A stretch of DNA of 64,000 nucleotides, from positions 1 to 64,000 of the IMG/VR virus record IMGVR_UViG_3300047172_000213, one strand, 5' to 3'. The position numbers were made by a program, and so were the translations under genes. The notes beneath the pieces were generated by a model. The model did not search any database. It saw only the letters and a list, made by a program, of their open reading frames with translations, and was not told where the DNA came from. Positions 12,670 through 55,786 of this stretch are shown here, piece after piece (the first letter of the stretch is position 1; each line of letters begins with the position of its first letter). The stretch comes from a virus.

Positions 12670-12691
12670 GGGAAGGGTCTCCCTCGTACTT

Positions 12692-12699
12692 CTTATCCC
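12692..12699 (-). promoter_or_regulatory. Promoter box GGGATAAG (minus strand)
   Basis: GGGATAAG followed by AA stands 22 bases before the ATG at 12669, the distance seen at the plus-strand copies. The upstream CAA box is not present at the usual spacing (CTA instead), so this copy is weaker evidence. Confidence 0.5.
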
Positions 12700-12714
12700 A
12701 CCCACGCGCGGATT

Positions 12715-25808: not shown

Positions 25809-25835
25809 CAACTTCTGCAGGGAATCCGGGATAAG
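25809..25835 (+). promoter_or_regulatory. CAA-N16-GGGATAAG promoter
   Basis: CAA at 25809 and GGGATAAG at 25828-25835, followed by AG; 18 bases to the ATG at 25854. Confidence 0.75.
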
Positions 25836-25853
25836 AGCGGTGGAGGACTCACC

Positions 25854-26159
25854 ATGCCGAAAAAGCCAACCAAGAAGACGTGTGCGCAGTGCGACAAGAC
25901 CGAGCACGAGCTGTGGGACTACTTCACGGTGCCAGGCAGTTGCCAACGACTCTACTACTGCAGCGACGACTGCATGCGCCTGCTGCACAACCGCTTGTTC
26001 CAGACGGAGGAACGGCGCACAGACGGCGGACTGCCGGTGGTCAAGATGACGCCCGAGGAGTTCAACAAGCTCCCGCGGCATCAACGCCAGTTCAGCGTAC
26101 CGACAGGCGGACCCGCTTCTTTCAGCACCCTGTCGATAGACCACAAGGCATGCAGGTAA
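25854..26159 (+). CDS. Zinc-finger-like protein, 101 aa
   Basis: Start ATG 25854 after TGGAGGA. Lys-rich N-terminus, then CAQC and YYCSDDC, giving four Cys spaced as in a small zinc-binding (MYND- or TRASH-like) unit: C-x2-C-x19-C-x3-C. Unit of one gene between its own promoter and an intrinsic terminator. Function unknown; a protein- or nucleic-acid-binding regulator is possible. Confidence 0.7.
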   Translation: MPKKPTKKTCAQCDKTEHELWDYFTVPGSCQRLYYCSDDCMRLLHNRLFQTEERRTDGGLPVVKMTPEEFNKLPRHQRQFSVPTGGPASFSTLSIDHKACR

Positions 26160-26160
26160 G

Positions 26161-26192
26161 AAAAGGGCGGCACCCGTTGCCGCCCTTTTCTT
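26161..26192 (+). terminator. Intrinsic terminator
   Basis: GGGCGGC (26165) pairs with GCCGCCC (26179), 7-base loop, then TTTTCTT; an A-run before the stem makes it potentially bidirectional. Confidence 0.85.
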
Positions 26193-26291
26193 AGCCCCCG
26201 CTTGACACCAGGCTCGTCGACTCTTACCAGTGGGGCATGAACTCGTCGCTATAGTGCAGTTCCGGTCGAGGTCAGCCCTCTCTACCACTAC

Positions 26292-26576
26292 GTGGTCATC
26301 AGGGCTGACTTCCCGAAGGGTGCGAACATCGTGCACGCAGCCGGGGAATCGAGCCCCGGCAACCTCCCTCGAGGCACCTATGCCGTGTGCCTGGTCGTGC
26401 CCGGGGAGAAGGAGCTCTGGGAGCTCGAGCAGCGCCTGCGCAAGGCCGGGCTGCGGTTCGTGAGCATCGTCGAAAGCGACGCCCCTTACACGGGGCAGCT
26501 GATGGCGCTGGGCTTCGCGCCCGCCGGGAAGGAGGTGTTGCGACTGTACTTGTCGCCGCTGCCCCTGTACCGGTAA
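26292..26576 (+). CDS. Peptidyl-tRNA hydrolase 2-like protein, 94 aa
   Basis: The sequence follows the PTH2 fold: first strand VIRADFPKG, helix with HAAGESSPGNLP, second strand GTYAVCLVVP, helix ELWELEQRLRKAGLRF, third strand VSIVESDAPYTGQLMALGFA, and the end LYLSPLPLY. PTH2 enzymes release peptidyl or aminoacyl groups from tRNA. In-frame codons upstream encode PLYHY, which belongs to the family's start, but there is no ATG there, only the GTG at 26292; the true start may be non-canonical. It lies 6 bases before a tRNA-like gene, which strengthens a tRNA-related role. Confidence 0.7.
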   Translation: MVIRADFPKGANIVHAAGESSPGNLPRGTYAVCLVVPGEKELWELEQRLRKAGLRFVSIVESDAPYTGQLMALGFAPAGKEVLRLYLSPLPLYR

Positions 26577-26582
26577 AACAAC

Positions 26583-26665
26583 GGCGTCGTAGCTCAGAAG
26601 AAAGAGCGCCCGATGTTGCTTGCAGCGGAGGGAGGTCGGTGGTTCAAGTCCATCCGACGCCACCA
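26583..26665 (+). tRNA. tRNA-like gene 1, anticodon uncertain (GCT by simple folding)
   Basis: GGCGTCG pairs with CGACGCC (7 bp), followed by A and an encoded CCA. GCTC/GAGC forms the D stem, but the D loop (AGAAGAAA) lacks the usual GG. The T arm is intact (GGTGG, TTCAAGT, CCATC). The anticodon region is about 7 bases longer than standard; the best stem is CGATG/CAGCG with one mismatch around TTGCTTG. Either an unusual tRNA or a decaying one. Confidence 0.6.
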
Positions 26666-26666
26666 T

Positions 26667-26741
26667 GCGCCCTTAGCTCAGTTGGTAGAGCAGCCCGGGT
26701 ATAGACCGGGTCGGCCGAAGGTTCGAGTCCTTCAGGGCGCG
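26667..26741 (+). tRNA. tRNA-like gene 2, anticodon ATA by simple folding
   Basis: Acceptor GCGCCCT/AGGGCGC is perfect; D arm GCTC/GAGC with loop AGTTGGTA, T arm GAAGG/CCTTC with loop TTCGAGT. The anticodon stem CCCGG/CCGGG (extendable by a G-T pair to 6 bp) closes the loop GTATAGA, so the triplet after T is ATA. The segment between D and T stems is two bases longer than usual. CCA is not encoded. Isotype not certain. Confidence 0.8.
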
Positions 26742-26930
26742 CTACTCTTTCACCCGCACATGCGTGGCCGATGAGCTGCGCGATAGCCGCATGACGCGCT
26801 CGCGCTGACCGAAAGGCGACGCGTCCAGCACGGTCACGTTCTTGCCGTTGCGGTAGGTGGCGACGTCCCTCAGCTCGAGATGCAGACGCACCACGAAGTG
26901 CTGGGCGTTGTACTCGTTGTCGAAGGACAA
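26742..26930 (-). CDS. Hypothetical protein with uncertain start, about 62 aa
   Basis: Convincing protein (SFDNEYNAQHFVVRLHLELR, DVATYRNGKNVTVLDASPFG) ends at 26742. The TTG at 26930 is the only start downstream of the preceding gene's stop, but the frame stays sensible up to that stop (VEYNTRVPQTYFL). It is +1 to the upstream 1,009-residue frame, so it may be that protein's real C-terminus reached by a frameshift, or be separated by a base error. Confidence 0.4.
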   Translation of the reverse strand: MSFDNEYNAQHFVVRLHLELRDVATYRNGKNVTVLDASPFGQRERVMRLSRSSSATHVRVKE

Positions 26931-26961
26931 GAAGTAGGTCTGGGGGACGCGGGTATTGTAC

Positions 26962-29900
26962 TCAACCGAGGATGGCCCTGGCGAACTGCAACGCCGAGAC
27001 GTACTCCTGCACAGCCCGCTGCTTCCTGCCCCGAGTGTCGCCCTTCTGTGCCACGTTCGAACCGCGCTTGATGCCCACGATGTTCTCGATGTTGGCGGGC
27101 ACCAGGCCGAAGATGTTGTTGTAGGGGCCGAACGCACGAGAGTGGAACCCCTCGATGCCCTGAATGACATCCTGCCCCGTGGGGTCGAGCGTGAGGTCGC
27201 TCGTGCCGAACATGTCGATCATCGTGGCGATGGGGCGCCAGGTGTAGCTCGAGATGAAGCCATCGATGCTCTGGTTGGTCTGCCGCACGTGCGAGTAGAG
27301 CTGCACCAAGAAGGCGACCGCGTCCTGGATGCTTGAGCCCTGGTCTAGCGCGAGAAGGCCGGCGGCCCAACCCGCGGGGTCGTCTGCGTCCAACGCCTTC
27401 TGCGCCTGGGCGAGGGCTTGCGCGGCCTGGGCGTAAGCCGCGCCGATGGAAGAGTCGCCTTCACTGACGAGCTGCTGGTCGGTGATGGAGCCCGTGTTGA
27501 AGAACTGTTGGTAGACCTGCCCTATGAGGGAGGGGTGCCAGCAGTCGCCGTACCAACCCGGGCGGATGTACTCCTCCGCGGGCAGGTCCACGGTCACCCG
27601 GCTGTACCGAGGCACGCTCTCGGTCACCTTGTACGCGCGGAAGAGAACGGGCAGGTCGCCACCGAGGAAGGCCACGAGGGGCTGACCGTAGACGCTGGCG
27701 TTCTGGGTCACGCCGATGGTCACGCTGATGCTCGGCGTGTTGGTGCCAGCGGTCGTGGGGCCCTGGTAGAGCGGCAGGTTCTGACCCCTGTAGGCCTGGC
27801 TCACGTCCTGCACCGCGGTGATGACGCCCAGGTTGGGACCGAGCGCGTTGACCTGTGGGGGGTCGACGCAGGCCACAACGCTCATGCGCGTAGCGTCTGC
27901 GCCTGAGCGCTGTTGAACCGTCTGGTCAGGGCGAATGACGCCCAGGTACTCGACCTTCTCTTCGGGCTGCCGCGCGTAGGAGCAGTTGAGCGTGGTCGAG
28001 CCGCTGTTCTGGTCGACGTTGTGTGTGAGCTCGGTGAGGTTGGCCAGGAAGTGGGTGCCCAGCAGCTGGTTCATGTCCGTGGTTACCACGCCACCGGCCT
28101 GCTGAATCAACTGCTGGCGAAGCGCGAGTGTCTCAGCGTTGACGTACTTGTCGATGATGAGCGCAGGGAATCCCGCTGCTAGGTACGGGTTGAACTTCCC
28201 GCTCACCTGCATCTGTCTCGCTGCGAAGCGGTACTTGAAGTAGAGGAAGTTGCAGCTGCGCTGGGCCAGGCCGATCTTCGGGGTCTTGCCGCCGGGAGTG
28301 GTGCCCGAGCGCGCAGCGAAGATGTTGAGCTCTCCCATCTTCTCGAAGACTGGCAGGATGCCGGTGAACAGCTCGTGGCCGAGGAGGCCGTTGGCCAGCA
28401 TGTCCTGCAGCTCACGGCCGCCGGTCTTCAACGTGAAGCCCTTGGGGGCGAAGTAGAACTGGTCGAAGAGCTCGTCCTCGCCGAAGAACTCGTCGTTCGT
28501 CTTGAGCAGCAGCCGTGTGGGCTCCGCCAGAAACGACCGGGCGTAGGTCATCGAGTGGTAGTTCTCGGGGAACAGAACGTTGCACCGAGGCGGGGCGCTG
28601 AACCACACATCGGGTCGGAAGATCTGGGAGTTGAGCCGCGCCGGCACTGCAGTCTTGCCGTTGGTGGTCACCTCGAAGTTCGCGGCGTTCTGTAGCTGCG
28701 CGGAAGCTGCGCTGAGCGCGGAGTTGACGCTGCTCACGATGCGAGAGTTGGACCCGGGCTGCCACTGCTTGACCAGCCCCTGCGCCGTACCGAGTGACTT
28801 CAGGGCACTCGCGTAGTAGCTGCGAGCGCCTGCCACCGTGGGCGAGGAGATCTGGCTGAGCGTAGTGGCGCACGTCTGACGCATTGTAGCGATGGTGTTG
28901 CGCACCGACGACTGCGCGTCCCCCGCGCTGCTGTTGGGGTCAGCGGGCGAGGACAGCGTGGTCATCACAGAGGAGATCGACTGAATGAGCACGTCCGCGT
29001 TGACCGCAATGAACGCGTTGTTCGGGTCCTTGCGTACGCTGTTGCGGACCGAGCCCGAGGGGTTGTTGCCGCTAGCCGGAGAGTAGTACGGGCAGGGTTG
29101 GGCATAGGTCTCGTGGAAGATCATCGACATCAGCGCGTTGATGGCCTGACGGATGGAGACCTGCTGCCCGAGGTTGCCCAGCGTGCGCCCGAAAAGCGAG
29201 TCGTAGCCACCGCCGATGAGACGACTCGCTGTCGGGTCGTTCTCGTAGGCGGTGATCATCTGGGTGATGTGCAGGCGTAGCTCGGCCAGGGAGAAGAAGA
29301 TGTTCTCGCCGCCGATGTTCTTGCCGTAGTAGTAGCTGCCGCCGATAGCTTCGCAGAGATGAACGATGCCTCCCAGTAGTCCTTTCAGCTTGGGGTACTG
29401 GATGCTGGGCGTTTGGATGATGCGCAGGATGGCGCTGCCCTCATCCTCGAGGAAGTCGGTGAACAAGTTGGTAGAGCCACCGGAGAAGATGGCCTTCACC
29501 CCGGGGCCGAACAGGTCGGTGTTGTTCCACTGGTAGGCGTAGTCCCAGTAGTTGCTCCAGTCGAGGCACTGCAGCACGAGCGAGCGGTTGTTCTGGTTCT
29601 TGGTCCACTGAAAGCCCACCACCTCGCCGCCGAAGAGCAGCTTGTAATTGGCGTTCTGGATGTCCTGGTCGTCGCCGACGGAGCTCGACTGCGAGAAGGA
29701 CGAGGGCGCGGGTGTGTTCTGGGCTTCGTAGTCGGTGGGGCTCCGGTTGGTCGTGGTGTTAGGGGCGCTTGTCGAGCTCGCGAAGGGTGACGACGCCGCG
29801 TAGAAGTCCAGGAAGAACAGGTGAACGAGCGAGCGGGGGAAGAGGCGGGTGCCCTCGGGCAGGGGAGGGATCTGGATGGAGCAAGACGCCGGGGAGTTCG

Positions 29901-29991
29901 GCGCCACCTGCACCTGCGCTGCGATGACTGGCACCTCCACCCCCTCAATGAAGAGGCGAAGGCGTAGCCGCTGTCCGTAGCCGCCGGCCAT
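26962..29991 (-). CDS. Large tail/baseplate protein, 1,009 aa (hub-like)
   Basis: The N-terminal 60 residues (LRLFIEGVEVPVIAAQVQVA, SCSIQIPPLPEGTRLFPRSL) resemble the first beta barrel of phage baseplate hub proteins. Residues 115-170 continue with FGGEVVGFQWTKNQNNRSLV. The rest is a mix of helical and beta parts, with Ser/Asn/Gln-rich linkers. Located two genes downstream of the tape measure in the order usual for myoviruses. Hub assignment is an inference from order and N-terminal pattern; no lysozyme domain is visible. Confidence 0.65.
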   Translation of the reverse strand: MAGGYGQRLRLRLFIEGVEVPVIAAQVQVAPNSPASCSIQIPPLPEGTRLFPRSLVHLFFLDFYAASSPFASSTSAPNTTTNRSPTDYEAQNTPAPSSFSQSSSVGDDQDIQNANYKLLFGGEVVGFQWTKNQNNRSLVLQCLDWSNYWDYAYQWNNTDLFGPGVKAIFSGGSTNLFTDFLEDEGSAILRIIQTPSIQYPKLKGLLGGIVHLCEAIGGSYYYGKNIGGENIFFSLAELRLHITQMITAYENDPTASRLIGGGYDSLFGRTLGNLGQQVSIRQAINALMSMIFHETYAQPCPYYSPASGNNPSGSVRNSVRKDPNNAFIAVNADVLIQSISSVMTTLSSPADPNSSAGDAQSSVRNTIATMRQTCATTLSQISSPTVAGARSYYASALKSLGTAQGLVKQWQPGSNSRIVSSVNSALSAASAQLQNAANFEVTTNGKTAVPARLNSQIFRPDVWFSAPPRCNVLFPENYHSMTYARSFLAEPTRLLLKTNDEFFGEDELFDQFYFAPKGFTLKTGGRELQDMLANGLLGHELFTGILPVFEKMGELNIFAARSGTTPGGKTPKIGLAQRSCNFLYFKYRFAARQMQVSGKFNPYLAAGFPALIIDKYVNAETLALRQQLIQQAGGVVTTDMNQLLGTHFLANLTELTHNVDQNSGSTTLNCSYARQPEEKVEYLGVIRPDQTVQQRSGADATRMSVVACVDPPQVNALGPNLGVITAVQDVSQAYRGQNLPLYQGPTTAGTNTPSISVTIGVTQNASVYGQPLVAFLGGDLPVLFRAYKVTESVPRYSRVTVDLPAEEYIRPGWYGDCWHPSLIGQVYQQFFNTGSITDQQLVSEGDSSIGAAYAQAAQALAQAQKALDADDPAGWAAGLLALDQGSSIQDAVAFLVQLYSHVRQTNQSIDGFISSYTWRPIATMIDMFGTSDLTLDPTGQDVIQGIEGFHSRAFGPYNNIFGLVPANIENIVGIKRGSNVAQKGDTRGRKQRAVQEYVSALQFARAILG

Positions 29992-29993
29992 GG

Positions 29994-31793
29994 CTAGATG
30001 AACATCCCGGTGGTGTTCACGTCGCTCTGGTTGCCGTCGGGCCCGATGAAGAAGTCGATCTCCGTCGAGCTCTCCGTCGTCAGGGTGCCGTTGGCAATCC
30101 AGCTCGAGAACAGGCTGGGGGAGCCGCCGACACTGACCGACGCGCCGACCGCGGACATGCCGTAGCCGTAGCCATTGCCCGAGAGGAAGCCGTTGCCCGT
30201 AGCGTAGGACTGCCCACCCGAGAACTGGTTCAGTGTGCCAGGGCCATTCGGTCCGATGCCGCCGCCGATGCCATAGGGGATGCCGCCACCGATGCCCGTG
30301 CCCTGAGAGACGCCCCCGTAGATGGGCACGCCATTGCCGTAGACCCCCTCGTTGTACGCAGCGTTTGAGCTGAGGTTCGCGGCGTAAAGACCGGCCGCCA
30401 CGTTGGGAGGCTGGATGATGAGGCTTGCGCTCGTGTACGAGGTGAACCCGCCGGTGAAGCCTAGTCCCCCGTTGATGCCCCCGTTGTACTCGCTACCGAA
30501 GCCACTACCAGAGTAGGCCCCGAAGCTCGCGTACGAACCGCCACCGATACCGATGCCAAAGCCCGTGCTCGTAGAGAAGGTCGGCAGAAGACCGAGGTTG
30601 CCGTAGTCATTGTAGCCGTAGGGCGAGACCCCGTAGCGTCGCGCAGAGGAAGTGAGCGCGTAGGGCAGGTCGTAGGCGTCGGGGTAGGACGGGTCGTACT
30701 CCTCATCGTAGTAGGTCTGCGCCGGGTCGTTGGTCGGCAGATCCACTGGCGTGGGCGAGGCGCCCGTCCACTCGTCCTGGTTGTCCTGAATGAGACCGCG
30801 GGTAGGCAGCGTGCGAAAGTTGTTGTCCTGCGTGCCCTGCGCCGAAGAAGCATCGCTCAAGTACTGGTCCACGTAGGGGGTGCCGGTGTACCGGACACCC
30901 GCGCGCAGCGCAGCGCTCAGACTTGCCCCGCCACCGAACCCAGCTCCAGCGCCCACACCAGCGACGGCGCCTACCCCTATGCCCGCGCCGGCGCCGAGAC
31001 TCGCTCCGAGGGCGACACCGGCAGACACCCCGATCCCCCCCTGCTGGTAGGCCCCCAGATACGCGCTGTTCAACCCGGACTCGTAGATGTCCACGTAGTT
31101 CTCGGGCTCCGTAGGAGGACCGACCTGGAACTGATCGGACGTGGTCAGCGTGGCGTCGGCAGGCATGTTGACGTACGTGGGGTACCTCGGGTCCGCGGCG
31201 TCGCCGACGATGGTCACGTTGGAGTAGTTGGTGAGATACAGGCGGAACTGCAGCATCACCATGAGCGGCGTATCGGAAGTCTTGCGCGCCTGCGCGCTGA
31301 GCATGTACCCCTCGACGATGTTGTCGTCGTAGAAGAGGTAGGTGCGCGCGCCGAGCTCCACGCTGCGCGTGCCGCGCAGGTACATGTTGTAGTTCTGCCA
31401 CCACTCCGCGTACCAGTTGAAGTCGTTGGAATCGACGAGCACCGCGGTCACGTCAAGAAAGCGCGGGCTCTCGCCGAAGAAGTAGATGTAGGGCTCGCCG
31501 AAGGTCTCGACGATCTGATGCTTCTCCATGCGCGCTTCCTGCACCGACTGCAGGATGAAGTTGGCGTACTGCGTGTTCGTCCCGCTCTTAGTGCCCGAGT
31601 CCACCATGGCGATGGGCTGGCCGTCGGACTGAACCACCTTGAGGATTGCGTACGTGTCGTCCTTGATCTCTAGCCCGCGCAGTGGGCGGCGCACGCTGTC
31701 CGAGCCAGCACGCCTTCGCTGCTGCTTTGCACGGGAGGCAGCGTTGAAGGTGTCGGTGAACGAATCGGTAGTGAGCTCGACGAACACAGCCAT
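29994..31793 (-). CDS. Virion/tail protein with Gly/Tyr-rich C-terminal half, 599 aa
   Basis: Start at ATG 31793. Residues 1-210 are a beta-rich domain (YAILKVVQSDGQPIAMVDSG, FFGESPRFLDVTAVLVDSND, YAEWWQNYNMYLRGTRSVEL) typical of small tail-completion or baseplate proteins. From about 260 onward the sequence is Gly/Ala/Ser/Tyr/Asn-rich (VGAVAGVGAGAGFGGGASLS; YGIGGGIGPNGPG), probably flexible. Three bases separate it from the hub-like gene. Confidence 0.65.
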   Translation of the reverse strand: MAVFVELTTDSFTDTFNAASRAKQQRRRAGSDSVRRPLRGLEIKDDTYAILKVVQSDGQPIAMVDSGTKSGTNTQYANFILQSVQEARMEKHQIVETFGEPYIYFFGESPRFLDVTAVLVDSNDFNWYAEWWQNYNMYLRGTRSVELGARTYLFYDDNIVEGYMLSAQARKTSDTPLMVMLQFRLYLTNYSNVTIVGDAADPRYPTYVNMPADATLTTSDQFQVGPPTEPENYVDIYESGLNSAYLGAYQQGGIGVSAGVALGASLGAGAGIGVGAVAGVGAGAGFGGGASLSAALRAGVRYTGTPYVDQYLSDASSAQGTQDNNFRTLPTRGLIQDNQDEWTGASPTPVDLPTNDPAQTYYDEEYDPSYPDAYDLPYALTSSARRYGVSPYGYNDYGNLGLLPTFSTSTGFGIGIGGGSYASFGAYSGSGFGSEYNGGINGGLGFTGGFTSYTSASLIIQPPNVAAGLYAANLSSNAAYNEGVYGNGVPIYGGVSQGTGIGGGIPYGIGGGIGPNGPGTLNQFSGGQSYATGNGFLSGNGYGYGMSAVGASVSVGGSPSLFSSWIANGTLTTESSTEIDFFIGPDGNQSDVNTTGMFI

Positions 31794-31803
31794 CGCACAC
31801 TCC

Positions 31804-32073
31804 TCAGATGACGACGTTCGACTTAATGAGGAAGTCGCGCACGTTGCGCGGCGGAACGACGCCAGAGTAGGGCTCCCCCTGCTGAAGAGCAAAGGCTTCC
31901 GCCTTGACCATCACCAGGTAGGGGTCCTCGACGGAGATCTTGTCGCGCAGCTTCATGGTGTAGAGCCGCCCGAACTTGCGGATGACGACGGACACCTCTT
32001 GCCGACAGGGTTCGCAGCCCGGCGGCACACTGAAGGGGAGAGCGCCTTCTACGAAGAGCAGCGACTTGGCCAT
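31804..32073 (-). CDS. Small tail-associated protein, 89 aa
   Basis: ATG at 32073 shares a base with the tape-measure stop (TAATG). A beta-rich start (MAKSLLFVEGALPFSVPPGC) with C-E-P-C, and a middle strand pair (SVVIRKFGRLYTMKLRDKIS). Its place directly after the tape measure suggests a tail-tip or hub adaptor. No domain identified. Confidence 0.65.
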   Translation of the reverse strand: MAKSLLFVEGALPFSVPPGCEPCRQEVSVVIRKFGRLYTMKLRDKISVEDPYLVMVKAEAFALQQGEPYSGVVPPRNVRDFLIKSNVVI

Positions 32074-35000
32074 TACTTCTCCGCGTCCTTTGGCTCAAGC
32101 TTGGCGATCTGATCGGCGGTCACGCCCGACGAGGTGGCGATGAGCTTGAGCAGCTCATTGGTCTTGTCCGTGTTCTTCTTGATGGCGGCCTGCAGCGGGT
32201 TGTCCGACTCCTGCTGCGCCTCGTCCTTCTTCTTTCGCGCGTCGGTAACTTCCTTCGAAGACATGACACCGGCGAGCTCCTGAGCCGCCTTGCCCTTGTC
32301 CTTCTGACCGAGCGCGCCCTGCAGCGCGGCCGCAACGCTCTTGCCACCCTCGGTCGTGATGTCCACGCCCATCGCCTGCAGCATCTTCGCAGCGTTGTCG
32401 GAGTCGCTGCCCTTGAGGTCTCCTGCTTTGAGCCCAGTGCCCAGCATACCCGCAACGGTTGCCGTGCGTCCCTTGCCCCGTCTCTCCCCTCGCTCAAGGC
32501 TAGACTGCAGCGAGGCCTCGTAGCTCGCCTCACCACCGACCGCGCCGCCCAACGTGGCCGAGACCTGCCTCTTCTGTTCGACGGTCAATCCTGCGAGTAG
32601 TGCTGCGTTGGCGTCGACGGTCGACATGCTGACCGCGCGCCCCTCCGCCTGTGCCCTCTCTGCGGAGACCATGGCCGCGGCGTACTCCGCCGTCTTGCCG
32701 CCAGCTTTCGTCAGAGTCTCCCAGGTGGTGTGACTGAGCCTGCCGGTCTTGGCGTCCATCACGCCCGTCATCTTCAGCGACTCGACGTTCTTGCCCGAGG
32801 CTACCATCGCGCGGCGTTGAGCTTCTTCGCGATCTTTCGCCTGACGGGAGTCGAGTGCGGCGGCGGCGCCTCCTAGCGTCTTCTTGATACCTTCGATCGT
32901 GACCCCTGGCCCCAGCGTGTCGCGATTGTGCTCGAGCCACCTCTGCTGGTCTTCCTCGGTCGCGTTCGGGTGGTCGCGCATGAAGTTGAGGTAGTCCTGC
33001 CCGGCGAGAAGGTTTCGCTTGACCTCGAGGTCACCTGTTGCGGGCTTGCCCACCTGCGCATCAATCTCTTTCCGCAACTGGGCCGCGGTGCCCGCAGCGA
33101 TCTCCTTGTTCTGGCTGAACAGACCGGTCACCGCGTCGCGGAACTTCTCGCTCTTGGCATACTCGCCCGCTTCCCTCTCGCGGTCGGTGGCGCCCAGTGC
33201 TTGCTCGGTCGCGCCCGTGGTCTCGACCCCGCCGAGTGCTTTCGCCCAGCCCCGCAGCTTGCCCTGCCAGCTATCCTTCGAGAACCCCTTGATGCCGAGC
33301 GCGTTGGCGAACGCCTTGCTCTCGGCATCCGTGGAGAGATACCCAGGCTGGCCCTGCTTGGCGAGCAGCGCAGCCATTCCGCCCTCTCCCAGACCTGACA
33401 TGCTTCCGAGTTGAGCGGCCGCGCCCACGCCCTGCGCGCGCTCGTAGTTTCCGATGAGCGCGGCCTTCGCAGTCGGGCTCTTCGCTCCATCAAGCTGCAC
33501 TAGCATGGCCTTGGCAGCTATGACGTTAGGGTCGTTCGGGTTGTTGCCATCGGCCTGGCGGCGAATGAGCGCCTCGATCTGAGCCTGCCTCTCGTCGCCA
33601 CGGCCTGTGATACTGCCCATCGAGTACGCACGGGATAGGAAGTCGCCCCCCTTGGCAGCGCCAACAGCCGCCTCATCGAAGCCCGTCGCCGCGGCCGCTT
33701 GCTGGGCCTGGGCCTGAAGCAGCTTCGCCTGGATCTGCTGGCTATTCATCCCCTTGATGTTGTACCCGAGGTCACGCAGCTTGCTGGCCCCCGACTGTCC
33801 CCCGAAGAGGTAGCCCATGTTCAGCTTGCCGTCGGAGAAGGCGCTGCCGTAGTCGGACCCGCGCCCGAGCGCGGCAGCCAGGTCTTCTTTCCCCGCGCCG
33901 CCGCGTGATGTCGCCCTCGAGGTGAAGTCCGTGCGCAGACCCCGGTTACCGATGCCAAACGCGCGAGCAGCTGCCTCATGGCCGAGCGTGCCACCGCGCA
34001 TCATCTGCTGGTAGTTCTGGTCTATGTCCTTCGAGTAGGTCTGGACGTAGGTGCCGAACAGCTTGTTGAAGAAGCGGTCCACCATGTCCGAGCCCTGGTT
34101 GAAGACGTCCTGACCAACCTTCTGCAGCGCGTTGTTGATCTGCTCCTTGGCCTGGTTGAAGCGCTGCTGCACACCTTGGATGCCCTGCCCCTTGCGGGCC
34201 TGCGCTACGCCCTGGAAGTAGCGGTCCGACTGCTCGTCCGACTGCTGCTGGCGCAAGATCTGGGGCATGTTCTGCGCCATCTTGATGGCCTGGTCCACCT
34301 CGTCGCGCCCCATCCCGAGCTGGCGCTGCGCGAAGAGCATGGAGCGGTCGTCCATGTTGTTGATGTCGACGCCCTTGGACTGCGCCCACTCCATCATCTG
34401 CAGGCCTGGCAGAAAGCCGCCGAGACGCTCCAGAGCAGCGCCCCGCAGCCGCCCCTCGTTGCGAATGAAGTTGGCTCGGCCGACCTTGCCGAGGTGCGCC
34501 TGGTCCTGCTTCATCGTCTCGCTGATGCCCATGCCCCCCTCGAGCAGCTGGTTCACGGCGGACTCGTCGAGCGTGCCGTCCTTGCCGGCGATGGAGGCGA
34601 GCAACCGGCGACCACGGCCGCTCTGTAGGAACTTCGCAGAGCTACCCATGGCGCTGGCAGCGTAGGCCTGCCGCCCCTCAGCCCCGGTCAGACCAGTCAC
34701 GTTGTAGATGTCCTCCTCCGAGAGGATGCCCATCTGCTGCGCAGTACCAATCTGGCCGATGGTCCTCACCCCAGCCATCGCCCCCTGCCGTCCGAGCCCT
34801 CCTATGGAACGGGAAATCTGGGAGCCGATGCTGGCTGCCCCGGTCACCTCGCTCATGGCCAGCCCACCAGAGACAGACGCCCCGCGAGCGGCCGCGGTGA
34901 ACCCCTGCATGCGCGGCATCCCAAAGACGCCCGAGCTCTTGCCCGCCTGGGCGAACTCCATCGCACCCTCAAGCGTGGTCCCCAGGTCGGTGGCCATCGT

Positions 35001-35642
35001 CTTGAGGGTGGTGACCATCTCCTTGAAGCGGGCGCTGAACTCCTTGACGTCGCGCACCCCCTGCGCGAAGCCCATCTGCCCCATCTTGCCCGCGAGCGTG
35101 GAGAGCTCCTTGAAGGAGGCCATCTCTCCACCGGGACCAACCTGGTCGCTCATGTCGCGGATCATCGAGCCGATGGAGCTCATGTCCCCGCGCTGAAACC
35201 CAGAGCCGCCGTACTGGTTTCGGAAGTTGAAGCTGCCACGCAGCTGGGCGTTGAGCTCCTGCTGCTGACTGGCCCCCTGCATCATCTGCCCGCCTGCGTA
35301 GTTGACCGCGGCGCCGGCGGCCATGAGGGGGAGCGCCACTGCACCGCCCACCGCCATCGCTCCACCGAACCCGGCACCACCAGCGAAGGCGCCCATCCCC
35401 GCACGCAGTCCGAGGGACATGGGGTCGAGCCCTGCCAGGCCGATGGCCCCCGCGGCGAGGGGGACGCCGACGCTGCTGGCCATGTTCATCGCCCCGGACA
35501 TCGCCCGGTCGCCGCCCTGCCCCGAGTACCCACCTCCGTAGACGTTGCCCTGCCCGACCATCGAGCTGTAGGCCATGTTGTTCATGGCCATGCTCTGGTA
35601 CGAGCCGTTCAGCTGAGCGATCTCGGAGGACGAGATGGGCAT
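32073..35642 (-). CDS. Tape-measure-like protein, 1,189 aa
   Basis: A long, mostly helical, Ala/Gln/Gly/Met-rich protein. Gly/Ala hydrophobic stretches at 50-110 (GVPLAAGAIGLAGLDPMSLG, GAMAVGGAVALPLMAAGAAV) are the kind that contact the membrane at infection; the centre is helical repeats (MGQMGFAQGVRDVKEFSARF) and the C-terminus is charged coil. It sits upstream of hub-like genes. By the usual 0.15 nm per residue rule the tail would be near 180 nm. Identification rests on size, composition and order. Confidence 0.7.
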   Translation of the reverse strand: MPISSSEIAQLNGSYQSMAMNNMAYSSMVGQGNVYGGGYSGQGGDRAMSGAMNMASSVGVPLAAGAIGLAGLDPMSLGLRAGMGAFAGGAGFGGAMAVGGAVALPLMAAGAAVNYAGGQMMQGASQQQELNAQLRGSFNFRNQYGGSGFQRGDMSSIGSMIRDMSDQVGPGGEMASFKELSTLAGKMGQMGFAQGVRDVKEFSARFKEMVTTLKTMATDLGTTLEGAMEFAQAGKSSGVFGMPRMQGFTAAARGASVSGGLAMSEVTGAASIGSQISRSIGGLGRQGAMAGVRTIGQIGTAQQMGILSEEDIYNVTGLTGAEGRQAYAASAMGSSAKFLQSGRGRRLLASIAGKDGTLDESAVNQLLEGGMGISETMKQDQAHLGKVGRANFIRNEGRLRGAALERLGGFLPGLQMMEWAQSKGVDINNMDDRSMLFAQRQLGMGRDEVDQAIKMAQNMPQILRQQQSDEQSDRYFQGVAQARKGQGIQGVQQRFNQAKEQINNALQKVGQDVFNQGSDMVDRFFNKLFGTYVQTYSKDIDQNYQQMMRGGTLGHEAAARAFGIGNRGLRTDFTSRATSRGGAGKEDLAAALGRGSDYGSAFSDGKLNMGYLFGGQSGASKLRDLGYNIKGMNSQQIQAKLLQAQAQQAAAATGFDEAAVGAAKGGDFLSRAYSMGSITGRGDERQAQIEALIRRQADGNNPNDPNVIAAKAMLVQLDGAKSPTAKAALIGNYERAQGVGAAAQLGSMSGLGEGGMAALLAKQGQPGYLSTDAESKAFANALGIKGFSKDSWQGKLRGWAKALGGVETTGATEQALGATDREREAGEYAKSEKFRDAVTGLFSQNKEIAAGTAAQLRKEIDAQVGKPATGDLEVKRNLLAGQDYLNFMRDHPNATEEDQQRWLEHNRDTLGPGVTIEGIKKTLGGAAAALDSRQAKDREEAQRRAMVASGKNVESLKMTGVMDAKTGRLSHTTWETLTKAGGKTAEYAAAMVSAERAQAEGRAVSMSTVDANAALLAGLTVEQKRQVSATLGGAVGGEASYEASLQSSLERGERRGKGRTATVAGMLGTGLKAGDLKGSDSDNAAKMLQAMGVDITTEGGKSVAAALQGALGQKDKGKAAQELAGVMSSKEVTDARKKKDEAQQESDNPLQAAIKKNTDKTNELLKLIATSSGVTADQIAKLEPKDAEK

Positions 35643-35672
35643 GTGGCGCCCTCACTCTATCACGCGGCTTGG

Positions 35673-35700
35673 CAAGAAACAGATGCCTCCGCGGGATAAG
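35673..35700 (+). promoter_or_regulatory. CAA-N17-GGGATAAG promoter
   Basis: CAA at 35673, GGGATAAG at 35693-35700, followed by AA; spacing one base longer than at the other copies. Nineteen bases to the ATG at 35720, with AGAGGAGG between. It points away from the tape-measure gene. Confidence 0.75.
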
Positions 35701-35719
35701 AAAACAGAGGAGGTAATTC

Positions 35720-36112
35720 ATGTCCAAGGTGAAGGTTCTTGTAGTCGACGACAGCGACCAGGTTCGTCGAGCGTACGAGCGCATGCTGAAGAAGGAGTAC
35801 GACTACCGCATCGAGAGCGACGGGCTCGAGGCTCTGCAGATTGTGCGCGGGAAGGTGTTCGTGCCGGACATCATCGTGTCCGACTACGACATGGGCGTCG
35901 GGTTCATGACGGGGGCTCAGCTCTGTGCGCAGCTGCGCGCGGAAAGCAACCGGGTACCCTTCATCCTCGCCTCCGGCAACTTGGAGGTGGAGACCTTGGC
36001 GAGGGAGTGCGGCGCCAGCTACGGGCTGCTCAAGCCGATCATGCCCTTCCAACTGGACCAGCTGGTCAAACGCCTGGTGCCAGCCGCGCAACCACCCTGC
36101 CTGGTCGAGTAG
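35720..36112 (+). CDS. Orphan response-regulator receiver protein, 130 aa (CheY-like)
   Basis: A complete receiver domain without an output domain: acidic pair Asp 10/11 (VKVLVVDDSDQVRRAYERML), phosphoacceptor Asp 55 (IIVSDYDMG), Ser 85 (ILASGN) in the Thr/Ser position and Lys 105 (YGLLKPI). Single receivers act by binding partners after phosphorylation. No histidine kinase is in the window, so the phage protein would draw on host kinases. Strong promoter and ribosome site upstream, terminator downstream. Confidence 0.85.
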   Translation: MSKVKVLVVDDSDQVRRAYERMLKKEYDYRIESDGLEALQIVRGKVFVPDIIVSDYDMGVGFMTGAQLCAQLRAESNRVPFILASGNLEVETLARECGASYGLLKPIMPFQLDQLVKRLVPAAQPPCLVE

Positions 36113-36117
36113 TTCAA

Positions 36118-36147
36118 CGGGGTCCCTTCGGGGGCCCCGCAACTCTT
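36118..36147 (+). terminator. Hairpin terminator with UUCG loop
   Basis: CGGGGTCCC and GGGGCCCCG form a 9-bp stem (one G-T pair) around TTCG, followed by CAACTCTT. The tail overlaps the CAA box of the next promoter. Confidence 0.7.
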
Positions 36148-36166
36148 AGCTCTTCCGCGGCATAAG
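36140..36166 (+). promoter_or_regulatory. CAA-N16-GGCATAAG promoter
   Basis: CAA at 36140, GGCATAAG at 36159-36166 (C in place of the third G); 20 bases to the ATG at 36187. Confidence 0.7.
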
Positions 36167-36186
36167 TAGGAAGAGGAGGAACTTCA

Positions 36187-36804
36187 ATGAACACCATAAA
36201 GGCGCTGTCGGTTGTACTTCTGTCTCTCAGCATCGGCTGCGGTACTGGTAGTGACGCTGGTACTGCCGGTGGAAGTAGTGGTAGTAGCGGTGGGCAGTGC
36301 TGCACATCCGGCTCGAGCGGCGGCGGCACAAGTACACAGGGACCCGCCGGACCCCAGGGTCCTGCTGGTCCGCAAGGCGCACCTGGTCTGCAGGGTCCCA
36401 TCGGCGAGACAGGTGCCACCGGACCTGCCGGACCTCAGGGTCCTGCCGGCCCGACCGGTGCGCAGGGGCCCGCGGGTGCTACCGGCCCGACTGGACCTGT
36501 TGGCGCGCAGGGGCCTGCTGGTCCGCAGGGGCCTGCGGGAACCATCGCCAGCACGAGCGAGTACGTTGTGTCGGCAGGTGTACAGACGACAGGCGGGAGC
36601 GCTGCCGCCATAGCCTCGTGCAAGAGCCCCAAAGATCTGCTCCTGGGGGGCACCTGCACGTCCAGCTACACGGGCTTCTACGTGCAGCCGGAGATCGTGC
36701 TGGGTAATGGCACCACATCGGTGTCGTCCTGGCAGTGCAGCGCGCAGAGTGGTGTCAGCCCAGAGCCGTCCGTGTATGCCGTCGCGCTCTGTCTGACCCC
36801 ATGA
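36187..36804 (+). CDS. Collagen-like lipoprotein, 205 aa
   Basis: A signal peptide ([17 protein letters not shown]) ends at a lipobox-like site with Cys 18. After a Gly/Ser linker there are 22 uninterrupted Gly-x-y triplets ([18 protein letters not shown]...), enough for a collagen triple helix, then a globular C-terminal domain of about 85 residues with four Cys ([20 protein letters not shown]). Collagen-like repeats are known in phage fibres, but a lipid-anchored form points to the host envelope. A surface role such as receptor blocking is inference. Confidence 0.75.
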
Positions 36805-36807
36805 AGC

Positions 36808-36846
36808 AGAAGAACAGCGGCCCCTCACGGGGTCACCTGTTCTTCT
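36808..36846 (+). terminator. Strong hairpin terminator
   Basis: AGAAGAACAG pairs with CTGTTCTTCT (10 bp), with CCCC/GGGG inside around TCAC. It begins three bases after the stop. Confidence 0.75.
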
Positions 36847-36857
36847 AGCCCACTATG

Positions 36858-36884
36858 CAACTCCTCCCCCGCTTCAGGGATAAG
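36858..36884 (+). promoter_or_regulatory. CAA-N16-GGGATAAG promoter
   Basis: CAA at 36858, GGGATAAG at 36877-36884, then AG; 21 bases to the ATG at 36906. Confidence 0.8.
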
Positions 36885-36905
36885 AGACACGAGGAGGCAT
36901 CGTTC

Positions 36906-37166
36906 ATGTTTCTCACACTCATCGTGCGTGCGGCCGTGGGCCTTGTCATGGCCATGGAAACTCCGGTCGAGATGGCCTGCGCGTCGCTCGCCCTGTGGGC
37001 TGGCGAGATCCGCGAGGAGAAGAAGGCCGTGGTGACGCTCAAGATCTACGTCACCGAGCGGGAGCTGGCCCAGATCGAGAAGTACCCGGACGTCGTCATC
37101 GCGTACCGGCAGGCCCAGCTGATAGAGGCTGCCGAGCTCGCGTACCAGCAGAAGCACCCCACCTGA
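36906..37166 (+). CDS. Hypothetical protein with hydrophobic N-terminus, 86 aa
   Basis: Start ATG 36906 after GAGGAGG. The first 35 residues are hydrophobic (FLTLIVRAAVGLVMAMETPV), the rest a charged helix (REEKKAVVTLKIYVTERELA, QIEKYPDVVIAYRQAQLIEA). A small hairpin (CCACCTG/CAGGTGG) spans its stop codon. No family recognised. Confidence 0.6.
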   Translation: MFLTLIVRAAVGLVMAMETPVEMACASLALWAGEIREEKKAVVTLKIYVTERELAQIEKYPDVVIAYRQAQLIEAAELAYQQKHPT

Positions 37167-37195
37167 ACTCAGGTGGTCAGAAGGAGGCACTAGAG

Positions 37196-37768
37196 ATGGA
37201 GGATGACAGAGAGAGGCTGAAGGCGCCGCTCAAGGCAGAGCAGCGCCGCAAGCTGGAGGAGCTCGGCCTTGTAGTTGTAGGGGCCGTGCAAAACCAGAGC
37301 AATAAGAGGGATAAGAGAAGTGAGGCGGTACTTCCGCCTGGAACAACTAAGAAGGAGGACCAAGTCATCATGCCCACCACCCAAAGTCACACCGAGTCGG
37401 CTACCACTGCTTCGCCCGAGACCGTTTCAGATCTCGAGCGCCGCATGGAGAAGCTGCAGACGGATATCAAGGAGGCAACGTTCCACACCGCCTCGGATGT
37501 GAACGCGCTTCTCGGCCACGCCAGGCTGACCTACGAGGAGACGACTCGTCTCCGCGAGAGCATGGGCCGCACCAGCGAGGATGTGCTCGCGTTCCGCAAG
37601 GAGTTCGCCAAGGCGAACAGCACCAAGGCGCACATCGTCCGCGGCGCAGCCATCGCCGGTGGCGTCGTCGTCGGCGGCACCCTCAGCGCTCTGCTGGGGC
37701 GGCTCATCTGGCGCAAGCCGGCCAAGGCGCTGATGCCCGATGCGGCGCAGCCCATCGCGGCGGCGTGA
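37196..37768 (+). CDS. Membrane-anchored hypothetical protein with a nested promoter and start, 190 or 132 aa
   Basis: ATG 37196 has AGAAGGAGG upstream and opens a charged helix (DDRERLKAPLKAEQRRKLEE). In the same frame, ATG 37370 has GAAGGAGGACC and its own promoter at 37289-37315, so a shorter 132-residue product is likely. That form has a helical domain (DLERRMEKLQTDIKEATFHT) and a C-terminal membrane segment (IVRGAAIAGGVVVGGTLSAL). Either the long form is real or a stop between two genes has been lost. Confidence 0.55.
   Translation: MEDDRERLKAPLKAEQRRKLEELGLVVVGAVQNQSNKRDKRSEAVLPPGTTKKEDQVIMPTTQSHTESATTASPETVSDLERRMEKLQTDIKEATFHTASDVNALLGHARLTYEETTRLRESMGRTSEDVLAFRKEFAKANSTKAHIVRGAAIAGGVVVGGTLSALLGRLIWRKPAKALMPDAAQPIAAA
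37289..37315 (+). promoter_or_regulatory. CAA-N16-GGGATAAG promoter inside a reading frame
   Basis: CAA at 37289, GGGATAAG at 37308-37315, then AG. The leader to ATG 37370 is about 54 bases and holds a small hairpin (AGGCGG/CCGCCT). Confidence 0.7.
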
Positions 37769-37780
37769 AGAAGTAGGTGA

Positions 37781-37830
37781 GTCAGCCTCCGGGCTGACAG
37801 AGAGGGCCGCCCTTCGGGGCGGCGCTCTTC
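37781..37830 (+). terminator. Double hairpin terminator
   Basis: First stem GTCAGCC/GGCTGAC (37781-37798), second CCGCCC-TTCG-GGGCGG (37807-37822) extended by AGAG/CTCT, then CTTC. Confidence 0.75.
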
Positions 37831-37846
37831 ACCTAGCCTTCACCTG

Positions 37847-37873
37847 CAATAACAAGGACTTCGGGGGGATAAG
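37847..37873 (+). promoter_or_regulatory. CAA-N16-GGGATAAG promoter without a close gene
   Basis: CAA at 37847, GGGATAAG at 37866-37873, then AA. The next coding start is 240 bases away, beyond a strong terminator. Confidence 0.75.
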
Positions 37874-37995
37874 AAGTACGAAGGTGTGCCTCCCCTTCAG
37901 TCGTGGCTCGTCGCCGTTGCCTTCTTGCGGCGATGGGTTGCGCACCGGCCCGCCCCTCCCTGCTGACACAGGGAGGGGCGGGAGCGGCCTTTTCT
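37874..37995 (+). ncRNA. Candidate small RNA between promoter and terminator
   Basis: About 120 bases lie between the promoter ending at 37873 and the terminator ending at 37995. The only frame inside is a weak one from GTG 37884 (26 residues, ending inside the terminator stem) with no good ribosome site. A stable RNA is the simpler reading; no family is recognised. This candidate, the flanking hairpins and the leader to 38114 fill the 345-base gene-free stretch 37769-38113. Confidence 0.35.
37947..37995 (+). terminator. Very strong intrinsic terminator
   Basis: A 14-bp stem (37949-37962 with 37969-37982, CCCGCCCCTCCCTG/CAGGGAGGGGCGGG), 6-base loop, then AGCGGCC and TTTTCTT. GGCC before and after the stem can add further pairs. 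Confidence 0.85.
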
Positions 37996-38113
37996 TAGCC
38001 CTACGCCCGTGTGGGTTCGCGGGGAAGTACAACAGCCTTCTCCTACTTGACACGTTGTTTTTCCTTGCGGGGGACCCAGGGTGTACGTACAACAAGGGTG
38101 AAAGGAGGACGCC

Positions 38114-38392
38114 GTGACCCTGAACGACACCGAGATGTTCGAGACCGCAAACGAGGCGGTCCTCTTCTGCCACTCGTACCTCCTGGAGAAGGGCGAAGCT
38201 GCCGCCGCCGTCTACCTCGAGGGACTCGACTGCATCAGCGACTTGCGCGGTGCCCGCATTGCTTACAACAGGCTCGTGGCAGCCGAGCAGCGCACGGTCA
38301 GCCAGGCCGTGCGGTATGCGGTGACCTCTGCCCTGCGTGCGGTAGAGCGCACGCTCGACGCCAGCGCGCCGCGTCTACACGCCGTCGCCTGA
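38114..38392 (+). CDS. Hypothetical helical protein, 92 aa
   Basis: GTG start at 38114 with AAAGGAGGAC seven bases upstream. All-helical (AVLFCHSYLLEKGEAAAAVY, AYNRLVAAEQRTVSQAVRYA). The nearest promoter upstream is separated by a terminator; a perfect TTGACA at about 38049 has no convincing partner box. No family recognised. Confidence 0.6.
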   Translation: MTLNDTEMFETANEAVLFCHSYLLEKGEAAAAVYLEGLDCISDLRGARIAYNRLVAAEQRTVSQAVRYAVTSALRAVERTLDASAPRLHAVA

Positions 38393-38394
38393 AG

Positions 38395-38421
38395 CAAACG
38401 CAGCTCCTAGTGCGGGATAAG
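38395..38421 (+). promoter_or_regulatory. CAA-N16-GGGATAAG promoter
   Basis: CAA at 38395, three bases after the preceding stop, GGGATAAG at 38414-38421, then AG. The 43-base leader holds overlapping hairpins (AGAAGC/GCTTCT and CGAGAGC/GCTCTCG). Confidence 0.8.
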
Positions 38422-38464
38422 AGAAGCGAGAGCTTCTCGATGCTCTCGTACTAGGAGGCACTGC

Positions 38465-39067
38465 ATGTACTGCTTTCAGGTTACGGAACGTGTGAATGTA
38501 GGACTGCCCATCCTGTGGGACGACGAAGGACCGTCCCTCGAACAGCCGGAAGGCTGGCCTGGGCAGCTGAAGCTGGACGCCCCGCTAGCAGAGGGGATCG
38601 TCTGGGCGTCCGAGTTCGGGGTCACGCGCCTTTGGCAGACCAGCTTGGACGTGGGTGTGAACTACTTGCTGTTCAAGAAGCCCAGCAAGACCAACGAGCG
38701 CATCGCTCTCGTTCACATCGCCACGGCCGCAGGGGTAGGCGGCAAGGTCTACCTCACGGCGAATGCGTATGAAGAAGTGATGCAGCACAAGGTGACGAGG
38801 GAGTACAGGCCGTTCCCCGGCGCCGGCGTGACCCCCCTCTGCAAGCCGGAGGTCGTGGCGGCAGCAAACGCCGGGGTCGACGCGCTCAACATGCTGGTGA
38901 TGATGCACCCGGGGGCGAGCTTCCGCATCCGCCGCAACGGCAAGCTAGAAGGGGCGAGCCCTCAGCTGTTCGTGCAGTGGAACGGCTCCGCGCTCGAGCA
39001 CACCCTGCCCAGGCGCTACCGCTACGAGGAGCGCGCGACCACGGGCTTCTTGTCGGCCGAGGCGTGA
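38465..39067 (+). CDS. Hypothetical protein, 200 aa
   Basis: Start ATG 38465 after TAGGAGG. Alpha/beta protein (GIVWASEFGVTRLWQTSLDV, NERIALVHIATAAGVGGKVY, LNMLVMMHPGASFRIRRNGK). The leader hairpins suggest control at the RNA level. A strong terminator follows. The last 46 bases overlap a minus-strand gene. No family recognised. Confidence 0.6.
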   Translation: MYCFQVTERVNVGLPILWDDEGPSLEQPEGWPGQLKLDAPLAEGIVWASEFGVTRLWQTSLDVGVNYLLFKKPSKTNERIALVHIATAAGVGGKVYLTANAYEEVMQHKVTREYRPFPGAGVTPLCKPEVVAAANAGVDALNMLVMMHPGASFRIRRNGKLEGASPQLFVQWNGSALEHTLPRRYRYEERATTGFLSAEA

Positions 39068-39372
39068 GTTGGTGCGTGCGGAGCAGGCTTGCTGGCCTGC
39101 TCCGCAGGCTCCTTTTTCTTATCCTTCGGCGCGGCCGCGCGGTCGGGCGACACGCCCTCGATCTTCTTACCCGCCTGGTCGAGCAGCGCGCGGATGCTGC
39201 GCATGCACGGCCCACAGAGGTCCTCGAACTCCACGGTGCGCGCAGCGCCCTCCGTCACCACCAGCTTGGCAGTGAACTGCGGCGTGACTTCCTTGACCGC
39301 GGCGTCGAACTCCCGCGTCTCCGTGCGCTCGCACCGCGAGCACTGAACCTCAACCACCTGTCGTCGTGCCAT
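39022..39372 (-). CDS. Small protein with two Cys pairs, 116 aa
   Basis: CSRC near the N-terminus and CGPC at about residue 54 (FEDLCGPCMRSIRALLDQAG) form a zinc-ribbon-like arrangement. The C-terminus is Lys/Ala/Pro-rich. It overlaps the plus-strand gene end by 46 bases and the upstream gene by 23. Function unknown. Confidence 0.6.
   Translation of the reverse strand: MARRQVVEVQCSRCERTETREFDAAVKEVTPQFTAKLVVTEGAARTVEFEDLCGPCMRSIRALLDQAGKKIEGVSPDRAAAPKDKKKEPAEQASKPAPHAPTHASADKKPVVARSS
39078..39120 (+). terminator. Strong intrinsic terminator
   Basis: GCGGAGCAGGC pairs with GCCTGCTCCGC (11 bp, 6-base loop), then a short spacer and TTTTTCTT. It lies within the 3' part of the convergent minus-strand gene. 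Confidence 0.85.
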
Positions 39373-39553
39373 CAGATGCTCCTCTCGTCTTGCGCCACAA
39401 GTAAGTCTTCAAGATCGCGCGCTCGCCCTTGGTGAGCGGGTCGTTCCCGAGACCGCTGAACCAGGCCTCGAAGGCCTGGATGTCCTCGTCCACTGCAGCC
39501 TCCAGCGCTTCGGGACGCTCGAGTTCTTCTACTGCTACCACAACACGCGGCAT
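39350..39553 (-). CDS. Hypothetical acidic protein, 67 aa
   Basis: Start at ATG 39553 (MPRVVVAVEELERPEALEAA), preceded by GGAGTTGCC. The start lies just upstream of, and divergent from, the plus-strand promoter at 39556. Helical with conserved-looking Trp residues (FEAWFSGLG, YLWRKTRG). Function unknown. Confidence 0.55.
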   Translation of the reverse strand: MPRVVVAVEELERPEALEAAVDEDIQAFEAWFSGLGNDPLTKGERAILKTYLWRKTRGASDGTTTGG

Positions 39554-39555
39554 GG

Positions 39556-39582
39556 CAACTCCTCCATCGTTTCGGGGATAAG
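39556..39582 (+). promoter_or_regulatory. CAA-N16-GGGATAAG promoter
   Basis: CAA at 39556, GGGATAAG at 39575-39582, then GG; 17 bases to the ATG at 39600. Confidence 0.8.
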
Positions 39583-39599
39583 GGTAATGAGGCATCCAC

Positions 39600-55722: not shown

Positions 55723-55778
55723 GTCTATCCTCCGCCGCTCTTGTTCCGCGCTAGGTCAAGTACTTTGCTGCTCAACGC

Positions 55779-55786
55779 GGCATAAG
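55779..55786 (+). promoter_or_regulatory. Promoter box GGCATAAG
   Basis: GGCATAAG followed by AA, 77 bases before the ATG at 55863. The CAA box is not at the usual distance (GTA there), so only the downstream box matches. Confidence 0.45.

Follow-up and report, generated by a model that had tools for sequence, protein, structure and literature searches.

The first 64 kb (the window) of the 171,415-bp virus record IMGVR_UViG_3300047172_000213 (hereafter G000) contain a recurrent two-part signal, in which CAA precedes the box GG[GC]ATAAG at a fixed distance. The whole record was analysed, and the sequence evidence makes it close to certain that this signal is a promoter. The explanation that best accounts for all of the data, and which we consider likely, is that it represents a phage-specific promoter class of sigma-70-family type, with a −35 element of approximately GCAAA (AA at −32/−31), an extended −10 box, GGNATAAG, at −14 to −7, and an initiator in which T or C at −1 is followed by G or A at +1. 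This class would be read by the phage's own sigma factor (17466–18275) acting on the phage's own fused beta–beta′ RNA polymerase (RNAP; 93260–99700 of the record), and would drive early or middle genes, including small accessory genes, the replication operon, thyX and small RNAs, in preference to structural and polymerase genes.

A first-pass annotation made from the window's sequence alone had proposed a two-box promoter at ten positions, and all ten boxes lie exactly where it placed them. CAA begins exactly 19 bases before the first G of the box at all seven sites listed with this spacing and 20 bases before it at 35673, while the two boxes described as lacking a good CAA (12692 on the minus strand and 55779) have CTA and GTA, respectively, at −19. 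The variants GTA, GAA and AAA are found besides CAA at the −35 position. In the window, GGSATAAG (S is G or C) occurs 10 times, versus 1.25 expected from dinucleotide shuffles, and none of 100 shuffles reached the observed count. A scan of the whole record, as the annotation had proposed, found 19 occurrences versus one for the reversed pattern. These sites are divided between the plus (11) and minus (8) strands, so the element is not limited to plus-strand units. When GGTATAAG sites are added to the 19 GGSATAAG sites, 18 of the 22 resulting GG[GCT]ATAAG boxes are noncoding in a record that is 6.5% noncoding (P = 2.2e-18), which answers the concern that the motif might be equally frequent inside genes. 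The boxes at 25828, 37308 and 37866 looked genic in simple gene calls because of over-long starts or a spurious open reading frame (ORF). As proposed, a coding start follows 17–22 bases past the box at most sites; leaders are longer at 37308, 38414 and 55779, and there is no start codon at all after 37866. Terminator-like hairpins, read from the sequence, directly precede the boxes at 36159, 36877 and 37866, in keeping with the suggestion that a terminator often lies just before the element.

The fused polymerase was used as a query to collect 63 related viral loci and named relatives. Thirteen relatives, mostly near whole, were compared, positional profiles were built over 14 genomes, and the isolates used for comparison were Salmonella phage Arash (OQ632216) and Vibrio phage D69 (OZ195729). 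Across 142 noncoding sites in the 14 genomes, AA is found at −18/−17 relative to the box at 101 sites, with distant offsets mostly giving 1 to 12, and a pyrimidine–purine (YR) step is found at +13/+14 of the box at 130 sites, with other offsets mostly giving 20–45. This step, an initiator 6 nt past the box, is a third part that had been overlooked, and it falls inside the range of 5–9 bases at which 5′ ends had been anticipated. If the purine of the step is taken as +1, the box occupies −14 to −7 and the AA −32/−31, positions taken by the −10 and −35 elements in sigma-70-family promoters; this arrangement points to a −35/−10/+1 promoter layout. The complete pattern, AA-N16-GG[GCT]ATAAG-N5-YR, occurs 11 times in G000 versus 0.00 in simulated genomes and 30 times in the relative G008 versus 0.08, and the strict form occurs only four times in Arash.

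Each of the 11 genomes tested had the box enriched in noncoding DNA (P from 2e-6 to 2e-18), and the box was found in genomes of 45–64% GC, including phages of Salmonella and Vibrio. Expectation maximization (EM) performed poorly in GC-rich genomes, where a 12-base width mostly returned purine-rich or T-rich motifs, so 7-mers in upstream regions were instead ranked by enrichment, with no motif given beforehand, and combined with positional profiles. GGGATAA, GGATAAG, GGCATAA, GCATAAG or ATAAGAG were at or near the top of this ranking in G000, G021, G022, G024, G028, G009 and G018, and GGTATAAG or its parts were top-ranked in the more distant G008, G020 and G030, whose polymerases are 40–44% identical. 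The box stood out less in G002 and G007, and was not seen among the upstream 7-mers of the partial genomes G019 and G010. The exchange of G or C for T among these 7-mers indicates that the box is kept while its third base switches by clade. In Arash, GGTATAAG is noncoding at 24 of 31 sites and has the YR step at 21 of 22, while D69 has a variant box, GTTATAAG, with the step at all 16 sites. The fixed spacing, the noncoding enrichment, the conservation across the lineage and the fixed initiator together bear out the proposal of a two-box promoter. Further variants, in which the −12 base varies, were seen in G020, where GCTATAAG and ATATAAG k-mers occur in upstream regions, and in G019, where GGAATAAG occurs with CAA upstream at 27827, 28034 and 28348.

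The annotation's label of "non-sigma70" is partly justified. The consensus of CAA(A) plus GGNATAAG, with G at −7, differs from the TTGACA (−35) and TATAAT (−10) of a canonical sigma70 promoter, but its geometry follows the sigma-70 family, with NATAAG at −12 to −7, and the phage has a factor of this family. This factor, the probable specificity factor, is a 269-aa protein encoded on the minus strand (17466..18275). Pfam, profile, AlphaFold and Foldseek analyses identify it as a member of the sigma-70 family that has regions 2, 3 and 4. A Sigma70_r2 search of the record gave no match, and the annotated sigma factor of D69 (VPHD69_0246) and gp196 of Arash found nothing in the record when used as queries; the gene and its orthologs were instead reached from weak sigma matches of about 255 aa in relatives, through an iterated profile search. 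Its ortholog in Arash is gp10 (E 6e-52), which is annotated as a sigma factor, and its ortholog in D69 is VPHD69_0011 (E 1.8e-47), which is annotated as hypothetical.

Region 3 is matched by Sigma70_r3 (PF04539; E 1.2e-10, 41.8 bits against a cut-off of 25.3) and is present in all 11 members of the family alignment. Region 2, which recognizes the −10 element, is covered by the profile alignment, and Pfam PF04542 alone detects it in three of 11 orthologs (best E 0.051). The region 4 helix-turn-helix, which recognizes the −35 element, is matched by PF04545 in seven of 11 orthologs (E up to 1, best 3.8e-6); PF04545 gave no Pfam match in the window protein itself, whose AlphaFold model (predicted local distance difference test, 88.9) features C-terminal helices. 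A profile of 44 homologs retrieved only sigma factors among the solved structures listed (best E 6e-22), with regions 2–4 aligned with those of primary sigma factors. A Foldseek search with the model retrieved sigma factors in initiation complexes (E ∼1e-7) with template modelling scores of 0.3–0.5 and a high root-mean-square deviation, which probably reflect differing domain placement. At the places that hold the two region 2.4 tryptophans in primary sigma factors, phages with G or C at −12 have N/R, T/R, H/R or similar, and three distant IMG/VR phages with T at −12 have pairs that include aromatic residues (W/Q, R/Y and Y/A). A relationship between these residues and the −12 base is a lead only, taken from a small sample in which the residue register was set by eye.

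The predicted polymerase is a single 2,146-aa chain, encoded on the minus strand, that joins Rpb2 and Rpb1 domains. PF00562, PF00623 and PF04998 are all present, Rpb2_6 is matched at 7e-63, and the NADFDGD catalytic motif is visible in the alignment ("fnadfdgd"). The alignment of its beta′ part with cellular beta′ extends across the stretch with the clamp helices, the binding site of sigma region 2, and the cellular NNEKRMLQESVDAL stretch is replaced. Among 33 sigma-bearing contigs, 28 also encode the polymerase, in most cases as a single open frame of ∼2,000 codons, and the five contigs without it are records of 53–137 kb that are probably partial. The sigma gene, in turn, is present in 13 of the 14 searched IMG/VR records that carry the RNAP and span at least 150 kb; the remaining one, G002, stops within the block in question. 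This co-occurrence is a correlation and not proof of pairing. Judged from the sequences, the sigma factor is likely to be the reader of the element, and its pairing with the phage polymerase is probable. A search of the record for a T7-type RNAP gave no matches, as did its control search. The chain that is fused in the IMG/VR phages, G000 among them, is split in D69 (OZ195729 143288–150339) and Arash (OQ632216 130093–141261), such that beta and the N-terminal part of beta′ form one protein and the C-terminal part of beta′ another, with other genes between them. RNAP genes with an Rpb2_6 insertion or unusually long matches were seen in G043 (122935–125019), G048 (54419–56548) and loci L045–L048, L058 and L060–L062, perhaps because of inteins or introns.

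The box precedes orthologs of genes 140 and 146 (the replication operon) and 167 (thyX), as well as small accessory genes and small RNAs. Orthologs of RNAP (gene 129), terminase (gene 124) and four large core genes (46, 104, 171 and 174) had no box in the 900 nt ahead of them in any of 78 cases. This absence suggests that the boxes are early or middle promoters. The presumed structural module contains the sigma gene, and the polymerase gene is located near terminase; together with the lack of a box ahead of polymerase, terminase and large core genes, this points to possible late synthesis and packaging. We hypothesize that the two proteins may be made late, carried in the virion and used to start the next infection; this is the least certain step of the proposed mechanism. 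The broader scenario, in which the phage has its own transcription machine (single-chain polymerase, sigma factor and −35/−10/+1 code) that is made late, packaged and used for early transcription independent of host RNAP, with co-evolution of promoter and sigma factor (G or C versus T at −12) across the lineage, is offered tentatively, as possible though somewhat short of likely.

A number of observations weigh against a promoter class read by the phage's own sigma factor and polymerase and used early. Of the 11 window promoters, two are without the YR step. Arash and D69 have a −35 AA that is weak or displaced, and unguided EM recovered the box clearly in G008 only and weakly elsewhere. In G007 the sigma gene has a box immediately ahead of it, which is at odds with purely late synthesis of the factor in that phage, and the early or late timing is read solely from the order of the genes and their tentative functions. 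Several relatives, as well as Arash and D69, encode further sigma-like proteins, so the matching of sigma factors to promoters is made by parsimony.

The main competing explanation accepts both the promoter and the phage sigma factor, but has the sigma factor recruit the host core RNAP, as in phiEco32 and T4, and leaves the phage polymerase to serve other promoters. Phage sigma factors usually work with the host core enzyme (PMC7598289; PMC7824862), the phage beta′ departs from the cellular consensus in its clamp-helix region, and a second motif in Arash and D69, TAAAATA, could suit another enzyme or sigma factor. We nevertheless consider this explanation rather unlikely, as the co-occurrence of sigma and polymerase across the lineage is a better fit to a phage-internal pair, and the box persists over the whole range of GC contents and in phages of both Salmonella and Vibrio. 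Reading by a host alternative sigma factor, such as one resembling sigma28, is improbable. The first-pass annotation had pointed to sigma28, whose consensus is TAAA-N15-GCCGATAA, and the resemblance is genuine: CAA(A), or TAAA in sigma28 (FliA) promoters, and GATAA are equally spaced in both. It does not amount to membership, however: where the sigma28 −10 box has GCC, the G000 box has GGN; position −7, right after GATAA, is a G; the base at −12 is G or C in some phage clades and T in others; and the phage encodes a sigma factor of its own.

Two further explanations do not require the box to be a promoter. In one, the box would sit within an RNA hairpin (e.g. CTCCTCC...GGGATAAG...GAGGAGG) that hides the Shine–Dalgarno (SD) sequence and controls translation. 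The spacer can indeed pair with the SD sequence at several sites (36877, 36159 and 38414), and permuted partners reached the observed pairing in only seven of 300 trials in G000 (window 35674–38465), a slight excess. Distant genomes have no such excess (289 of 300 in G008, 171 of 300 in G020 and 185 of 300 in G030), and this lack of conservation led us to reject an SD-sequestering hairpin. Such a hairpin would also leave the fixed −35 AA and the initiator unexplained, the box precedes noncoding RNAs as well as genes, and the 5′ half of the hairpin would be untranscribed if the predicted +1 is right, so we regard it as very improbable. The least probable alternative is that the element is a repeated site for a repressor or for a DNA-replication or packaging protein. 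Repeated intergenic sites are by themselves no proof of a promoter, but this element is asymmetric and nearly always oriented with the downstream gene, has −35/−10/+1 spacing, and has a predicted +1 that coincides with the start of a structured RNA.

Comparable arrangements are known from other phages, and each differs in part. PhiEco32 (consensus TAATGTATA) and phage 7-11 (PMC4331800) likewise have a phage sigma factor and a phage-specific −10-like element before many genes, but they use the host core enzyme, whereas the G000 phage encodes a full fused beta–beta′ polymerase, and the motif is different. The non-virion and virion RNAPs of phiKZ and AR9 (PMC7598289; PMC7824862) are also phage beta/beta′ homologs with phage-specific promoters, but they are split into several proteins and no sigma factor is found in their group, in contrast to the single chain and sigma factor of G000. 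The late promoters of phiKZ have TATG and those of AR9 template-strand uracil, whereas the G000 phage has a −35/−10 pair, and the AR9 enzyme relies on gp226, which has no sequence similarity to sigma factors (PMC7598289). With one 2,146-aa open frame and a sigma factor, the G000 phage falls outside the phiKZ-type jumbo RNAP group (group 1). The crAss-like RNAP also has beta and beta′ in one polypeptide, but is so divergent that cellular beta/beta′ profiles miss it (PMC7481178), whereas the G000 polymerase is readily matched by Rpb2_6. The environmental tailed phages of the mReC lineage (Weinheimer and Aylward 2020, PMC7481178) likewise encode full-length beta and beta′ homologs, and the G000 phages probably belong to this or a neighbouring lineage; mReC phages are marked by the capsid family PF07068 and terminase family PF03237, and the only PHROG terminase match seen in the G000 record was to phrog_675. 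The main text of the mReC paper does not contain "sigma" or "promoter", and mentions fused subunits for crAssphage only (PMC7481178).

Jumbo phages without an RNAP usually have sigma factors (PMC7598289), and overviews sort large phages into two classes, one having a multisubunit RNAP of its own but no sigma factor, the other having sigma factors but no RNAP (PMC7598289; PMC7824862). The G000 lineage has both, a pairing that is unreported in published large-phage surveys. A literature search, with most subscription papers outside its reach, found no prior description of the motif. Within a large family of uncultured phages, the element fronts dozens of genes. It offers an easy guide, at the level of sequence, to transcription units and small RNAs in many uncultured phage genomes. 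The combination of an RNAP, a sigma factor, a readable promoter code and the isolates Arash and D69 makes it possible to test how polymerase, sigma factor and promoter co-evolve outside cells. Being compact, made of one chain and accompanied by a dedicated sigma factor, the polymerase could serve as an orthogonal transcription tool.

The predicted promoters of the window are mostly on the plus strand. The first (25809..25842) has CAA at 25809, GGGATAAG at 25828–25835 and a predicted +1 at 25842 (TG step), and heads an ORF from 25854. The promoter at 35673..35707, with CAA at 20 bases, GGGATAAG at 35693–35700 and a predicted +1 at 35707 (AG, no YR step), precedes a gene (35720–36112) for a protein resembling a response-regulator receiver. 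The next (36140..36173; CAA 36140, GGCATAAG 36159–36166, predicted +1 36173, again AG with no YR step) heads ORF 36187–36804, which has a lipoprotein-like start followed by collagen-like repeats rich in Gly-Pro. Promoters 36858..36891 (CAA 36858, GGGATAAG 36877–36884, predicted +1 36891) and 37289..37322 (CAA 37289, GGGATAAG 37308–37315, predicted +1 37322) head ORF 36906–37166 and an ORF that ends at 37768 after a 48-nt leader to its ATG, respectively. Promoter 38395..38428 (CAA 38395, GGGATAAG 38414–38421, predicted +1 38428) heads ORF 38465–39067, whose ortholog also has a box ahead in G002, G019 and G028; one locus scan with this protein found no relatives. Promoter 39556..39589 (CAA 39556, GGGATAAG 39575–39582, predicted +1 39589) heads ORF 39600–39854. 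Weaker −35 elements characterize 55760..55793 (GTA; GGCATAAG 55779–55786, predicted +1 55793), which heads ORF 55863–56879, and, on the minus strand, 12685..12718 (CTA; GGGATAAG 12692–12699, predicted +1 12685), which heads ORF 12325–12669. A further minus-strand promoter, 315..348, was absent from the first-pass annotation and has GGTATAAG with its first G at 329, AAG at −19 and a predicted +1 at 315, ahead of ORF 91–282.

The remaining plus-strand promoter (37847..37880; CAA 37847, GGGATAAG 37866–37873, predicted +1 37880) has no coding start behind it, and would instead produce a predicted noncoding RNA of 118 nt (37880..37997, plus strand; fold z-score −6.1). The predicted +1 is the first paired base of the first stem, and the last stem is the terminator. 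A positional counterpart lies behind the box at 10340 in G002; a DNA search of the 37800–38100 region in named phages gave no match. Boxes without a nearby coding start lead into apparent noncoding RNAs in G021 (111621, 182465 and 186810) and G024 (41177, 154202 and 150298), some of which end in terminators and some of which are alike between the two genomes. A T-run with AGC after it (TTTAGC, TTCTTAGC) is modestly overrepresented in the noncoding DNA of several genomes, often right before the box, and is a possible terminator signal.

A second motif for the structural units of the G000 phage was sought and not found. In Arash (OQ632216) and D69 (OZ195729; L253–L260), the intergenic motif TAAAATA and the GGTATAAG/GTTATAAG sites mostly occupy opposite strands, and both phages also encode a second, different sigma factor (gp196 and VPHD69_0246). 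A two-sigma, two-promoter programme would be an attractive reading for these isolates. An Rfam scan of the window returned two tRNAs and nothing else, and these two tRNA genes (26583–26741) follow downstream of the unit that the 25828 promoter heads.

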